Of a DNA stretch of 32,508 nucleotides, positions 26,097 through 30,940 are shown one piece after another. Made by a program: the position numbers and the translations under genes. The notes under the pieces were generated by a model. The model was not told where the DNA came from and did not search any database. It was given only the letters and a program-made list of their open reading frames with translations. Source of the stretch: Thermoanaerobacterales bacterium (GTDB lineage: Bacteria; Bacillota; Thermosediminibacteria; Koleobacterales; Koleobacteraceae); assembly GCA_012839065.1 (NCBI GenBank), contig DUOC01000166.1, positions 1 through 32,508 on the forward strand, read 5' to 3'. Position 1 is the first letter of the stretch. The number at the start of each line of letters is the position of its first letter.

Positions 26097-26539
26097 TGCT
26101 TGTCATTTTACAAAAGGATGTAAAAAAACTGGGAGCAAAAGGGGATATAGTCAAAGTATCTGATGGATATGCACGAAACTACCTTCTGCCAAGGGGGCTG
26201 GCTGTCGAAGCGACGGAAAAAGGCATAACTCATGTAAAGACCTTAAAAAAACAACAGCAGCGGAAAGAAGAAAATGAACTCAAAGAAGCCAAAAAGCTGG
26301 CAGAAAAGCTTGAAGGTCAGGTATTTGTACTGAAGGCTAAAGCAGGAGAAAAAGGAAGGCTGTTTGGCTCTATAACATCAAAAGATATAGCAGACAGTAT
26401 TAAAAATAAATTTGGTTTATCCATAGATAAAAGGAAAATAGATCTCCCCGAACCTATAAAAGCCCTTGGCAGCTATGAAGCAGAAATAAGAATCTATCCG
26501 GGTGTTACTGCTGCCATTAAAGTAGTAGTTGAGGCATGA
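26096..26539 (+). CDS. rplI: 50S ribosomal protein L9
   Basis: A 147-aa L9 with the N-terminal domain [33 protein letters not shown], then the long connecting helix (about 41-75) and a C-terminal domain with [19 protein letters not shown]. It binds 23S rRNA near the L1 stalk and helps maintain reading frame. The ATG overlaps the gdpP stop (TAATG), indicating translational coupling. The gdpP-rplI-dnaB order is conserved in Firmicutes. Confidence 0.97.
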
Positions 26540-26582
26540 AGGTCATCTATATTATCAAATAGCAATTAACCAAGGGGGGGGA

Positions 26583-27941
26583 ATGGGTGAAATGGACTTA
26601 ATACAAAGAGTGCCTCCCCAAAACATAGAAGCGGAACAATCAGTTTTGGGCGCAATGCTCCTGGAAAAAGATGCAATAGTTTCAGCAGCTGAGATTCTAA
26701 AAGGGGAGGACTTCTATAAAGAATCCCACAAAAAAATATTTGAGGTAATTATTGATATATATGAGAAGAATGAACCTGTAGATCTGATTACTGTTACTGA
26801 GGAACTGCGTAAAAGAAATTCTCTGGAGGAAATTGGTGGGATAACATATATAACCTCACTTGCTAATAGTATTCCTACTGCAGCTAATACAGCGTACCAT
26901 GCAGCTATCGTTAGAGATAAATCGATACTTAGAAAACTGATCAATGTTTCTACAAGGCTGGTAAAAATGGGCTATGATGCTGATAAAAATGTTGAAGACA
27001 TACTGGATGAAGCCGAACGTATGATTTTTGAGATTGCAAACAAACGCTCATTAGAAGGATTTTCGCCTGTCAGAGATGTGGTTATAGAAACACTGGACAT
27101 GATAGAGGAACTCTATAAAAACAAAGGCAAAATGACCGGGATCCCAACCGGCTTCCTTGATTTTGATAATATGACTTCAGGTTTCCAACCTTCAGACTTG
27201 ATAATTATAGCAGCTCGTCCTTCTATGGGCAAAACGAGTTTCGCACTCAATATTGCCCAATACGCTTCTATTAGGGAAAAAGTTCCGACTGCTATCTTCA
27301 GCCTTGAAATGTCGAAAGAGCAGCTGGTTCAGAGAATGCTGTGTTCAGAAGCGCATATTGACAGCCACAAGTTAAGAACAGGAAACCTTGAAGAAAACGA
27401 TTGGCTCAAATTAGCAAGGGCTATGGGGCCCCTTTCAGAAGCACCGATTTACATAGATGATACCCCCGGGATAAGCATAATGGAGGTTCGTGCAAAAGCG
27501 AGGAGACTCAAAGCCGAAAAAGGATTAGGATTAATTATTATAGACTATCTGCAGCTTATGCAGGGCAGGGGATCTAGCGAAAACAGACAGCAGGAGATAT
27601 CAGAAATATCAAGGTCGCTAAAAGCACTTGCCAGAGAACTCCGTGTTCCGGTAGTTGCACTTTCACAGCTAAGCAGGGCGCCGGAAATGCGTCAGGATCA
27701 CAGACCAATTCTAAGTGATCTTCGTGAATCGGGCAGCCAGGAGCAGGATTCTGATTTGGTAGTTTTCCTTTACAGAGATGAATATTATAACTCAGATACG
27801 GACAAGAAAAATATAGCAGAAGTTATTATCTCAAAACAGCGCAATGGTCCGACAGGAGTAGTCGAATTGGTATGGCTAGATAAATATACTAAATTTGTGA
27901 ACAAAGCAAAACAGCAGTATACTGAAGTCGGGAGCGCATAA
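26583..27941 (+). CDS. dnaB: Replicative DNA helicase DnaB (DnaC in Bacillus)
   Basis: This is the hexameric helicase that unwinds DNA ahead of the fork. The 452-aa protein starts near RVPPQNIEAEQSVLGAMLLE, has the N-terminal helical domain to about 150, then the RecA-like core. Walker A is RPSMGKTS at 212-219; later motifs include IIDYLQLM and SQLSRAPE. ATG 26583 follows AAGGGG by 5 nt. ATG 26592 would remove three residues, and the frame upstream to 26529 lacks support. Confidence 0.96.
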   Translation: MGEMDLIQRVPPQNIEAEQSVLGAMLLEKDAIVSAAEILKGEDFYKESHKKIFEVIIDIYEKNEPVDLITVTEELRKRNSLEEIGGITYITSLANSIPTAANTAYHAAIVRDKSILRKLINVSTRLVKMGYDADKNVEDILDEAERMIFEIANKRSLEGFSPVRDVVIETLDMIEELYKNKGKMTGIPTGFLDFDNMTSGFQPSDLIIIAARPSMGKTSFALNIAQYASIREKVPTAIFSLEMSKEQLVQRMLCSEAHIDSHKLRTGNLEENDWLKLARAMGPLSEAPIYIDDTPGISIMEVRAKARRLKAEKGLGLIIIDYLQLMQGRGSSENRQQEISEISRSLKALARELRVPVVALSQLSRAPEMRQDHRPILSDLRESGSQEQDSDLVVFLYRDEYYNSDTDKKNIAEVIISKQRNGPTGVVELVWLDKYTKFVNKAKQQYTEVGSA

Positions 27942-27969: not shown

Positions 27970-29625
27970 ATGATTATTGGTCTCGATATGGGAGGAACCC
28001 ATACCGATGTAGCACTTTTGGAAAACGGAGAAATATATAAAAAAACAAAATATCCGAGGCAAGAAGACTTTCTTGAATCGATCCTAATACCTTTGGATCA
28101 AATAATGGAAGGAGAAGATCCTTTAGCGATAGAACGGGTTCTTTTGAGCACTACCCTATCTACAAATGCTATAGTAGAAGGCAAACTGGGTAAAGTAGGT
28201 ATGGTACTTGAGCCTGGTCCGGGTTTAAACTTGGATTATTTAAACAGTATTTTCCCCGTTTGTTTTATAAGCGGGTATATAGATCACAGAGGCAGGGAAA
28301 AATTTTCACTTGATATGGATGAAGTCAGATCAGCAGGCAGGCATATGAAAGAGAAAGGGGCTCAATACCTAGGTATTGTAGGTAAATTCTCAACGAGGAA
28401 TCCATTACATGAAAAGAAGATATATGAGACAATAGGTCCATCTTTTAGTTATTCCACTCTGGGGCATACACTTTCCGGTAATCTAAACTATCCGAGGAGG
28501 ATCTATACATCATACTTAAATTCAGGGGTTTGGGAAATATACAAACAATTTCTAAAGGCAATAAAATATTCTTTGGGCGAACGTAAGATAAAAGCCCCAT
28601 TATATATTTTGAAAGCCGATGGAGGCACTCTAGCCGGAGACGCAGCACTTTTAAGGCCCGTAGAAACCGTTCTCTCCGGTCCTGCTGCAAGTATAATGGG
28701 TGCTATGGCTCTGGAAGATATTGAAGAAGACGGTATAATACTCGATATAGGAGGGACTACTACAGATATTGCCTTTCTTGCTGACGGGGTTCCTCTTTTT
28801 GAACCGCGGGGAATAGAAGTTTCAGGTTTTAAGACCCTTATAAGGGGGCTGTATTCAAGACCTTGTGGTGTCGGTGGTGACAGTCTGGTAGAATTGAAAG
28901 ATGGGCAGTTAAAGATAGGACCCGAGAGGCTGGGACCTGCTGCGGCATTTGGAGGTTCATCGCCAACACCAACAGACGCAATGGTAATAAAAGGCATATA
29001 CAAAGAAGGCTCTAGATCAAAGGCAATTGAAGGGCTAAAACCCTTGGCGGATAAAAAAGGAGTAAGTGTTGAAGAAATGGCTGATATGATTTACGAGAAG
29101 ACAGCAGATATTATCGTAGAAAACATTAACAGATATCTGGGAGAAGTAAATTCAAGACCTGTATATACTATACATGAACTGCTGCACGGTAAGAAGCTAG
29201 CCCCTCAAAAAGTAATTTTAGTTGGTGCGCCTGCACCTGCTTTTGCAGAACCGGTATCGAAAAAGTTGGGTATACCATGTATTTTGCCTGAAGGATTTGA
29301 GGCTGCAAATGCACTGGGTGCAGCACTTTCAAGGGTTACAACTGAACTTACGGTAGTAGCTGATACCCAGGAAAGAACATTAGTAGTGGGCGAAGAGGGT
29401 ATAAGAGAAAAAATACCTTCAAATTTTAGTAAAAAAGATGCGGAAAAAGTCCTGTTTTCATATTTAAGAGAAAGATGTATAAAGATGGGCGGAGATCCCT
29501 CATCACCTATGGAAATAATAGAAGAAGAAGAGTTTAATGTTGTGAGGGGATTTTATACCTCTGGTAAAATAATAAGACTAAAAGGACAGATCAAACCCGG
29601 GATAAGGGGTGATTATGGTGCTTAA
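27970..29625 (+). CDS. Hydantoinase/oxoprolinase family ATPase (HyuA-like)
   Basis: This 551-aa protein has the ASKHA ATP-binding pattern of HyuA/5-oxoprolinase A subunits: an N-terminal GLDMGGTHTDVAL, LSTTLSTNAIVEGK, then the second phosphate motif LDIGGTTTDIAFL and GVGGDSLVEL. A late VLVGAPAPAFAEPV could be the adenosine-binding segment. These enzymes use ATP to open cyclic amides such as hydantoin or 5-oxoproline. The B subunit usually required is not nearby. ATG 27970 is chosen over 27955 because GGAGAG lies 8 nt upstream. It overlaps the next gene by 11 bp. Confidence 0.83.
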   Translation: MIIGLDMGGTHTDVALLENGEIYKKTKYPRQEDFLESILIPLDQIMEGEDPLAIERVLLSTTLSTNAIVEGKLGKVGMVLEPGPGLNLDYLNSIFPVCFISGYIDHRGREKFSLDMDEVRSAGRHMKEKGAQYLGIVGKFSTRNPLHEKKIYETIGPSFSYSTLGHTLSGNLNYPRRIYTSYLNSGVWEIYKQFLKAIKYSLGERKIKAPLYILKADGGTLAGDAALLRPVETVLSGPAASIMGAMALEDIEEDGIILDIGGTTTDIAFLADGVPLFEPRGIEVSGFKTLIRGLYSRPCGVGGDSLVELKDGQLKIGPERLGPAAAFGGSSPTPTDAMVIKGIYKEGSRSKAIEGLKPLADKKGVSVEEMADMIYEKTADIIVENINRYLGEVNSRPVYTIHELLHGKKLAPQKVILVGAPAPAFAEPVSKKLGIPCILPEGFEAANALGAALSRVTTELTVVADTQERTLVVGEEGIREKIPSNFSKKDAEKVLFSYLRERCIKMGGDPSSPMEIIEEEEFNVVRGFYTSGKIIRLKGQIKPGIRGDYGA

Positions 29626-30940
29626 AGCTAAAAACAGGTTAGGTCTGGTTTTTTTCCCTGCTTTTGATTGGGCAATAAGTTCTACTCATCCCGAAAGAGA
29701 AGAAAGGCTTCTCTATACAAGGGATCAGGTTGAAGAAGAAGGGCTTTTTGACATAGACGGTATTATTGAATATAATCCCAAAATGGCATCTTATAAAGAT
29801 GTGCAGAGGGTTCATTTATGTGTACCTGATGAGAAAAGCAGAATGACTGAATCCCATTTAATTTCAGCGGGCGGGGCTATCACTGCAGCGGAAGCTGTTA
29901 TCAAAGGAGAGGTGGACAAAGCCTTTGCACTGGTAAGACCGCCCGGGCACCACGCAATGAGGGTAGTGCACGGTGCCAGGGGATTTTGTAACATAAATAT
30001 TGAGGCGGTTATGATAAACTATATAAGGAAACACTATGGGATAAAAAAGATTGCCATAGTAGATACTGACTGCCATCATGGTGACGGAACTCAAGATATA
30101 TACTGGAATGATCCGGATACACTTTTTATCTCACTGCATCAAGACGGGCGCACACTTTATCCGGGCTCGGGATACACTGATGAAATAGGAGGACCTAATG
30201 CAGTTGGCTATACGCTTAATATACCACTACCTCCAGGCACATCAGACGAGGGTTTTCTATATGCCCTTGATAATTTAATACTTCCCGTAATTGAGGAATT
30301 TCAGCCGGAACTCATAATTAATTCTGCAGGCCAGGATAATCATTATACAGATCCTATAACTAATATGAATTTTTCCGCCAGCGGTTATGCGACACTAAAC
30401 GATAGATTAGATCCCCATATTGCAGTTCTTGAAGGAGGCTATTCTATCGAAGGCGCTCTTCCATATGTAAATACGGGTATAATCCTAGCGATGGCAGGTC
30501 TAGATTATAGCAATGTAAAAGAACCGGATTTTGAGCCGGGCAGATTTAGAGAAACTGCTCGGGTTATGGAACACATAAAAGATGTATGTGAAGAGGTCTA
30601 CAGGACATGGAAGAACCGTTCTAAATATAGACAGAAGATGATTAAGGATGCGAAATATTTAAAGGAACGAAGGAGTATTTATTATGATACGGACGGGATA
30701 TCAGAATCTCGTGAAGAAATTATAAAAATATGTGATTGTTCCGGTTATTCAATACTGACATCAACTTCTGACAGGGGTTATACTATAAGAAGTGTTATTA
30801 TCCCATGGAATTCATGTCCCAAATGCCATAAAGAAGGGCTTGAAGCATTTGAAAAGATAAGGGAAGAAAAGGGATTCCCGTCAGGTATAATTTGCCTTCA
30901 GGACGGTATTAATGATATATTTATTAGAGAGACTCCATAA
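29615..30940 (+). CDS. Histone deacetylase family amidohydrolase with Cys-rich C-terminal extension
   Basis: This 441-aa protein has an HDAC/AcuC/APAH fold in residues 1-300. The active site is complete: His112-His113 (RPPGHHA), Asp150, zinc ligands Asp152, His154 and Asp241 (SAGQD) and the transition-state Tyr276 (LEGGYS). Bacterial members deacetylate polyamines, acetoin-related or other acyl-amide substrates. An unusual tail (about 310-441) has Cys373/Cys375 and Cys401/Cys404, a possible zinc site. ATG 29615 lies 5 nt after AAGGGG; GTG 29609 is inside that site. It overlaps the HyuA-like gene, so the two probably act together. Confidence 0.88.
   Translation: MVLKAKNRLGLVFFPAFDWAISSTHPEREERLLYTRDQVEEEGLFDIDGIIEYNPKMASYKDVQRVHLCVPDEKSRMTESHLISAGGAITAAEAVIKGEVDKAFALVRPPGHHAMRVVHGARGFCNINIEAVMINYIRKHYGIKKIAIVDTDCHHGDGTQDIYWNDPDTLFISLHQDGRTLYPGSGYTDEIGGPNAVGYTLNIPLPPGTSDEGFLYALDNLILPVIEEFQPELIINSAGQDNHYTDPITNMNFSASGYATLNDRLDPHIAVLEGGYSIEGALPYVNTGIILAMAGLDYSNVKEPDFEPGRFRETARVMEHIKDVCEEVYRTWKNRSKYRQKMIKDAKYLKERRSIYYDTDGISESREEIIKICDCSGYSILTSTSDRGYTIRSVIIPWNSCPKCHKEGLEAFEKIREEKGFPSGIICLQDGINDIFIRETP

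Follow-up and report, generated by a model that had tools for sequence, protein, structure and literature searches.

This report concerns a pair of neighbouring genes in a 32,508-nucleotide stretch of DNA from a Thermoanaerobacterales bacterium (GenBank assembly GCA_012839065.1, contig DUOC01000166.1, positions 1 to 32,508 of the forward strand), referred to below as the window. One gene encodes a HyuA-like ATPase of the ASKHA fold and the other a zinc amidohydrolase of the histone deacetylase (HDAC) fold, and comparative sequence evidence supports, about as firmly as genome comparison can, the two proteins being functional partners. As the best explanation we favour, at a probability of about 45%, an amide hydrolase that is driven by ATP and made of two obligate components, with the HDAC-fold enzyme in the place of HyuB. 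By analogy with known HyuA systems, the short HyuA-type ATPase would use ATP to phosphorylate, and thereby activate, the carbonyl group of an amide or imide, in a substrate that is charged and probably cyclic. The HDAC-fold enzyme would then cleave the C–N bond, in the position that HyuB holds in hydantoinases, 5-oxoprolinases and caprolactamase. Phosphorylation driven by ATP, contact or channelling between the proteins and the sequence of the two steps are what we infer. No description of a HyuA-HDAC pair was found in the literature searched, a coverage from which subscription papers were mostly absent, and the activity proposed for it appears, to our knowledge, on no pathway map. Genes of such pairs are usually annotated singly, as hydantoinase/oxoprolinase and as histone deacetylase, and both names are probably misleading for the pair.

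The first-pass annotation of the window had described two frames of these families overlapping by 11 base pairs (bp), and this is borne out by the open reading frames and by Pfam, with ATG starts at 27970 and 29615. The genes and the sites preceding them are as follows.

27970..29625, + strand: HyuA-like ASKHA-fold ATPase, short form without Hydant_A_C; 551 amino acids from ATG 27970; PF05378 and PF01968
27957..27962, + strand: Shine-Dalgarno-like GGAGAG, seven bases 5' of ATG 27970 (sequence)
29615..30940, + strand: HDAC-fold zinc amidohydrolase; 441 amino acids from ATG 29615; PF00850, E 2.8e-68
29604..29609, + strand: Shine-Dalgarno-like AAGGGG, just 5' of ATG 29615 (sequence)

PF05378 and PF01968 match the HyuA-like protein at E 6.5e-25 and 3.3e-49. 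Its frame, which ends in a TAA stop at 29623–29625, has an alternative start at ATG 27955 (556 amino acids), and the longest start of the HDAC-fold frame is GTG 29609 (443 amino acids), which would lengthen the overlap to 17 bp; residues are numbered below from these two longer starts. AlphaFold models reached a mean predicted local distance difference test score (pLDDT) of 91.6 for the HyuA-like and 89.0 for the HDAC-fold protein. In Foldseek, the nearest solved folds were subunits of N-methylhydantoinase, acetone and acetophenone carboxylase and caprolactamase for the former, and bacterial HDAC-like enzymes for the latter.

The pairing of the two genes extends far beyond the window. In a set formed by the window genome and 40 relatives, a HyuA match at E ≤ 1e-10 was present in 31 of 41 genomes, and wherever HyuA was of the short form the HDAC gene adjoined it (30/30). 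A scan of species-genome contigs yielded at least 567 relatives, and the best 80 of these make up the named loci. They derive from Clostridia, Tissierellia, Moorella, other Bacillota, deltaproteobacteria and Burkholderiales (Oxalobacter, Herminiimonas), and also from Spirochaetes, Kiritimatiellae, Methanosarcina and Methanothrix. The HDAC gene lies directly 3' of HyuA in 73 of the 80; a contig edge lies at or close to HyuA in six of the remaining seven, and Desulfonema magnum (L046) has the HDAC gene at another place in its genome. Plasmids gave no match at E ≤ 1e-60.

Co-occurrence was counted in four samples whose phylum names are inferred, Bacillota from the window genes and named relatives; three samples were centred on Desulfofustis glycolicus (Desulfobacterota; L060, G321), Methanosarcina (Halobacteriota; L094, G322) and Herminiimonas (Pseudomonadota; L069, G323). 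The reciprocal search with the HDAC profile covered Bacillota and Desulfobacterota. Among 299 Bacillota genomes (HyuA profile at E ≤ 2.4e-111, HDAC profile at E ≤ 1e-90), HyuA was found in 118 and HDAC in 118, and 116 contained both. The resulting table (116/2/2/179; Fisher p ~2e-78, the kinship of genomes being ignored) places the pairing far above chance. Below a gap in the scores, 25 weaker HyuA matches (E 6.6e-86 to 3.2e-73) were excluded from this count; their frames of 418–718 amino acids, most above 630, resemble ordinary HyuA. All 116 pairs are adjacent on the same strand with HyuA first, at a median distance of 23 nucleotides between profile matches, and the largest distances, 1025 and 1086, come from HyuA matches restricted to about residues 2–312. 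In the one-sided genomes G106 and G119 the contig end truncates the missing partner to a fragment, and in G267 the HDAC extends to the contig end.

In Desulfobacterota, the HyuA (E ≤ 1e-105) and HDAC (E ≤ 1e-90) profiles matched the identical 49 of 198 genomes, and no genome of the 198 had one partner alone at these cut-offs. Inspection of 48 of the 49 loci gave 43 adjacent and five unlinked pairs, and the coordinates of the 49th (G657) show adjacency as well. Similarly, HyuA was matched at E ≤ 1e-95 in 17 of 196 Halobacteriota genomes, with an adjoining HDAC gene in 17/17. Four of these (L139–L142) belong to a divergent type with ~30% HyuA identity; among three of the four, read with longer flanks, two HDACs are ~355 amino acids long without C-terminal cysteines, and the HDAC of L206 is split over two frames. 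Pseudomonadota contributed one genome of 349, the Herminiimonas centre genome itself. The earlier proposal that the deacetylase-like protein might be HyuA's partner is upheld in part, as a functional partnership, and the neighbourhood extends well beyond a few strains; the two-step degradation or repair route proposed with it, and hydantoins, 5-oxoproline or acylated polyamines as candidate substrates, are conjecture. The pair is maintained in some archaea and in hundreds of bacteria, most of which avoid oxygen.

Six genomes hold both genes in unlinked positions, namely G598, G631, G660, G687, G712 and Desulfonema magnum. In the first five, all Desulfobacterota, HyuA has aminotransferase IV, SpoU and CobD genes in its vicinity, and HDAC occupies a separate site, preceded by a thymidylate kinase gene and a small gene; these neighbours were identified by Pfam on one member each and in the others by sequence cluster. 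Further, a carboxynorspermidine synthase-like gene follows the unlinked HDAC 3' in four of the five. The five genomes share their gene order and hence are near relatives, and they may represent a single event. Retention of both genes despite the loss of linkage is the strongest evidence of mutual dependence as opposed to mere joint transfer. At one of these unlinked loci (L327, 6150–9970), the HDAC gene is followed by the carboxynorspermidine synthase-like gene and then by nspC; the synthase-like gene stays under its NCBIfam cut-off (408 of 800 bits), and nspC exceeds its own (457 vs 409).

The absence of HyuB next to the pair had also been pointed out, and it holds for the window, where none of the six proteins scanned with Pfam is a HyuB. 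It does not hold for the whole genome, whose only HyuB match (PF02538) lies on contig C133, cut by the contig end and directly after a different, full-length HyuA. That second HyuA (685 amino acids) carries PF19278 (Hydant_A_C; E 7.4e-14), a domain not matched in the window HyuA-like protein at E ≤ 0.01. The pair and HyuA/HyuB coexist in some genomes, the window's own included. A HyuB located elsewhere is not general: PF02538 was found at E ≤ 1e-15 in 47 of the 299 Bacillota genomes, including 24 of the 116 with the pair. Because the other 92 of 116 pair genomes have no HyuB match, the HDAC-linked HyuA evidently has no need of HyuB.

Conserved residues were counted in 251 non-identical full-length pairs, drawn from 276 loci with both genes (261 full length). 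In HyuA, four motifs stand out.

28384..28398, + strand: signature K144-F-S-x-R148 of HDAC-linked HyuA; K144 251/251, R148 249/251
28612..28626, + strand: signature K220-A-D222-G-G; K220 243/251, D222 250/251
28744..28767, + strand: phosphate-2 motif DIGGTTTD; D264 251/251, T268 251/251, D271 247/251
28873..28884, + strand: signature GGDS (D309); D309 248/251

The ATP-site residues are retained, with D11 in 242/243 rows and D264 and D271 as listed; D18 is kept in 227/243 and K32 in 233/244 rows, and T15 and D341 are near-invariant. In the caprolactamase paper, Asp11, Asp18, Lys32, Asp295 and Asp302 of CapA are placed around ATP and substrate (PMC8453981), and in a profile alignment D264 and D271 of the window HyuA share a motif with CapA Asp295 and Asp302. 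The letters K, R, K, D and D at positions 144/148/220/222/309 recur in five unlinked HyuA and in three divergent archaeal HDAC-linked HyuA; the unlinked HyuA of Desulfonema magnum carries the same K144/R148/K220/D309 motifs. Seven short HyuA linked to S-Me-THD-like genes have V at 144, M or V at 148, Q at 220, mostly D at 222 and G or S at 309. In three HyuB-linked HyuA, one of them partial, the residues present are L at 144, I or A at 148, N or Q at 220, N at 222 and G at 309. None of these ten has K144/R148/K220/D309 as a set. D222 by itself does not discriminate, because most S-Me-THD-linked HyuA also have D there. The aligned motifs differ in relatives from the PDB too, except for an Arg of CapA at the R148 position. 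As judged from these alignments, the K144/R148/K220/D309 signature is one that tracks the HDAC partner, and the charged residues peculiar to HDAC-linked HyuA suggest a charged substrate. In a separate locus (L243, G140), codon 501 of an otherwise intact HyuA match is an in-frame TAG, which may be an assembly error, pyrrolysine or a sign of a pseudogene.

The HDAC-fold protein likewise has an intact predicted active site, in which H114-H115, D154, H156 and Y278 are assigned their usual HDAC roles.

29948..29953, + strand: catalytic pair H114-H115; 251/251 each
30068..30076, + strand: predicted zinc ligands D154 and H156; 251/251 each
30332..30343, + strand: Q242-D243-N244-H245, with D243 the predicted third zinc ligand and Q242 a family signature; 251, 251, 250 and 251 of 251
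30440..30442, + strand: predicted catalytic Tyr, Y278; 251/251
30731..30826, + strand: C-terminal four-cysteine extension; C375 249/250, C377 248/249, C403 248/248 and C406 247/247 of rows with a letter

With PF00850, Asp-His-Asp ligands, His-His and Tyr, the window protein has the features of the HDAC (arginase/deacetylase) superfamily, and its four-cysteine extension is putatively zinc-ribbon-like. Position 250 is I or L in 251/251 rows, so that there is no acidic gatekeeper after the third zinc ligand; we take this position to be equivalent to the acidic gatekeeper (DPE motif) of the polyamine deacetylase HDAC10.

Compared with known systems, the pair combines familiar parts in a distinct way. 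The window HyuA resembles the HyuA/HyuB hydantoinase, 5-oxoprolinase and caprolactamase family in PF05378 and PF01968, in the Asp/Gly/Thr motifs of the ATP site and in the ASKHA fold, but differs in lacking PF19278 and a HyuB neighbour, in its length (~556 against 685 amino acids in the other HyuA of the same genome), in K144/R148/K220/D309 and in its HDAC-fold partner. Its partner shares the HDAC fold, zinc ligands, His-His and Tyr with bacterial HDAC-like amidohydrolases (HDAH, A. baumannii Kdac1, dimethoate and propanil hydrolases), but unlike them has an invariant Q in AGQDNH, a conserved FPAFDW..HPEREERLLYT N-terminus, linkage to HyuA and the four-cysteine C-terminal extension, the last being absent in two divergent archaeal pairs. 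Sequence matches also place it in one superfamily with acetylpolyamine amidohydrolases and HDAC10, from which it departs by I/L250 instead of the presumed acidic gatekeeper and by a different C-terminal extension. The S-Me-THD-linked HyuA (PF06032/PF20906) are similar to the window HyuA in being short and adjoining a non-HyuB protein; the window HyuA falls outside that type, as its neighbour is PF00850, not PF06032/PF20906, and it has K, R, K, D at 144/148/220/309 where they have the letters given above.

The two proteins appear to have been inherited together. Across 251 pairs the correlation between HyuA and HDAC distances is r 0.86, shared species history included, and 40 of 69 splits are common to the HyuA and HDAC FastTree trees of 72 pairs. 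The shared splits include groups that mix phyla, such as Bacillota with methanogens and Pseudomonadota with deltaproteobacteria. The distance correlation and the shared splits indicate joint inheritance, not contact. A mean-field coupling analysis, run with a reduced alphabet and fewer columns, gave a clustered signal between HyuA 526/531 and HDAC 279/281, next to the catalytic Tyr. The exchange within this cluster is charge-compatible, R being matched by E in 183 rows and E or D by Q or K in 29, and a basic HyuA residue 531 is kept in 0/40 rows lacking HDAC E281. Three open frames of 936–1000 amino acids were considered as natural HyuA-HDAC fusions and rejected, since G625 has a TAG between the frames and those of G543 and G698 have GC-rich open 5' frames. 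At L174 (3527–3529), HyuA and HDAC stand in one reading frame with a single TAG codon between them.

The reading of the pair as one ATP-driven hydrolase is preferred because the structurally known HyuA relatives act with a metal subunit, because the HDAC-linked HyuA is without HyuB, and because residues of the ATP/substrate domain of HyuA have changed along with the partner. A more specific form, which we hold only tentatively, is that an HDAC-fold hydrolase replaced HyuB in an ATP-driven amidohydrolase complex, making it a third HyuA partner type beside HyuB and S-Me-THD-like proteins and a housekeeping enzyme of many anaerobes for a charged cyclic amide or imide; the substrate would possibly be a damage product or a lactam derived from lysine or polyamine. 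Several observations weigh against a single obligate enzyme. Couplings separated poorly from shuffles: the best inter-protein score was 0.49, compared with 0.35–0.37 in four shuffles, which in contrast to the real run used unweighted rows. The most suggestive couple, HyuA 531-HDAC E281, has too few independent changes to be significant, with 3 of 10 contrasts in its favour (sign test p 0.25). The long HyuA open frames of the Desulfobacterota scan proved not to be natural fusions. An HDAC of the pair type was not found at E ≤ 1e-60 in the genomes of L097 and L104, where HyuA is at a contig edge. On the 3,415-bp contig of G126, the fourth one-sided genome, the end of a pair-type HDAC precedes HyuA, a possible exception to the gene order on a contig that stops 338 bp after HyuA. 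Also, pair genomes do not avoid HyuB (odds ratio 1.8, p 0.07, 299 Bacillota). Amide hydrolysis by HDACs needs no ATP, and an ATP-requiring partner is therefore chemically not obligatory; finally, successive uncoupled steps can also be served by neighbouring genes.

It is conceivable, if rather unlikely, that the two proteins catalyse successive and physically separate steps, with HyuA opening a ring with ATP, alone or with another hydrolase, and the HDAC-fold enzyme deacylating the free N-acyl or ureido product. The complete HDAC active site and the lack of a fusion agree with such a pathway, and the six genomes with unlinked yet co-retained genes suit it as well as a complex. Set against it are the HyuA signature, which tracks the partner type, and the behaviour of HyuA relatives. 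N-methylhydantoinase, a solved relative, presumably acts with, or joined to, a metal subunit, and the caprolactamase and carboxylase relatives do so according to PMC8453981. An ordinary lysine or polyamine deacylase that HyuA regulates, loads or repairs, with a different substrate for HyuA, is a doubtful alternative. It would fit the general independence of HDACs from ATP and the lysine and polyamine contexts, in which HDAC precedes a gene resembling that of carboxynorspermidine synthase (followed in L327 by nspC) or the pair precedes epmA; these contexts are limited to a few lineages, however, HyuA retains its ATP- and substrate-site residues together with its peculiar charged ones, and the presumed gatekeeper-equivalent position is I or L in every row. 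The cross-phylum groups shared by the two trees, which make the pair seem to move between phyla together, would also be expected from a relic of joint horizontal transfer of two independent genes. We consider this highly improbable, as presence remains tied where linkage is broken (the five genomes and Desulfonema magnum) and no Desulfobacterota genome of the 198 has one gene alone at the profile cut-offs. The two-component hypothesis can be tested directly by way of the unlinked genomes and the partner-tracking signature. If the pair is one enzyme, sulfate reducers, syntrophs and methanogens (life styles assigned from organism names) would have in common a conserved activity, carried out by an HDAC-fold catalyst driven by ATP.

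The window genes that flank the pair lie outside the system.

26529..27941, + strand: dnaB, upstream neighbour; PF03796 and PF00772
30985..32367, + strand: FAD-dependent oxidoreductase with a PF21688 C-terminal domain, 44 bp 3' of the pair

As the first-pass annotation had stated, the pair follows dnaB, which ends at 27941 and leaves a 28-bp gap to the HyuA ATG at 27970, and it lies away from a catabolic cluster; no fixed catabolic cluster was seen among the loci. The oxidoreductase is not conserved with the pair, with a match in L077 alone (26% identity) among the 80 named loci. Among 30 loci with ~1.5-kb flanks, dnaB adjoins the pair only in the window and two relatives (L004 and L005), and elsewhere other housekeeping genes do so, such as mutS/mutL or epmA. 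The named loci have 75 same-strand neighbours within 300 bp, of which 60 were scanned; eight mutS/mutL neighbours (L107, L108, L111, L113 and L089) and seven short frames were left out. No family dominates the 60 (EpmA-like tRNA-synt_2 8, CMD 4, others at most 3). When the neighbours left out are counted, MutS occurs five times upstream and MutL four times downstream, all within one group of related genomes. The dnaB, mutS/mutL and epmA contexts were judged incidental and rejected as a functional clue. Polyamine genes in the unlinked clade and epmA neighbours hint at lysine- or polyamine-derived amides, each being confined to a few lineages.

The pair stands between mutS and mutL in L089 (Pfam) and in L107, L108, L111 and L113 (sequence cluster). 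A gene for an EpmA/GenX-like EF-P lysine ligase lies 3' of the pair in L054, L057, L058, L065, L066, L068, L078 and L086, and that of L058 scores over its NCBIfam cut-off. In two other loci (L194, 4222–7037; L195, 3819–6519), a second short HyuA paralogue of ~520–550 amino acids adjoins an S-Me-THD-like gene (PF06032/PF20906). The same layout in L196–L201 provides further cases of HyuA with another non-HyuB neighbour; the S-Me-THD-like genes were identified by Pfam in L194 and L195 and by tblastn in all eight. An M24 peptidase is found nearby in L194 and a cytosine/purine permease in L195. The window itself contains no tRNA genes, and a promoter/terminator scan was uninformative, with 23 promoter-like sites compared with 16.3 on average in shuffles. 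Within the HDAC gene, positions 29748–29776 match the sigma-70-type consensus perfectly (TTGACA-17-TATAAT), possibly by chance in AT-rich DNA.

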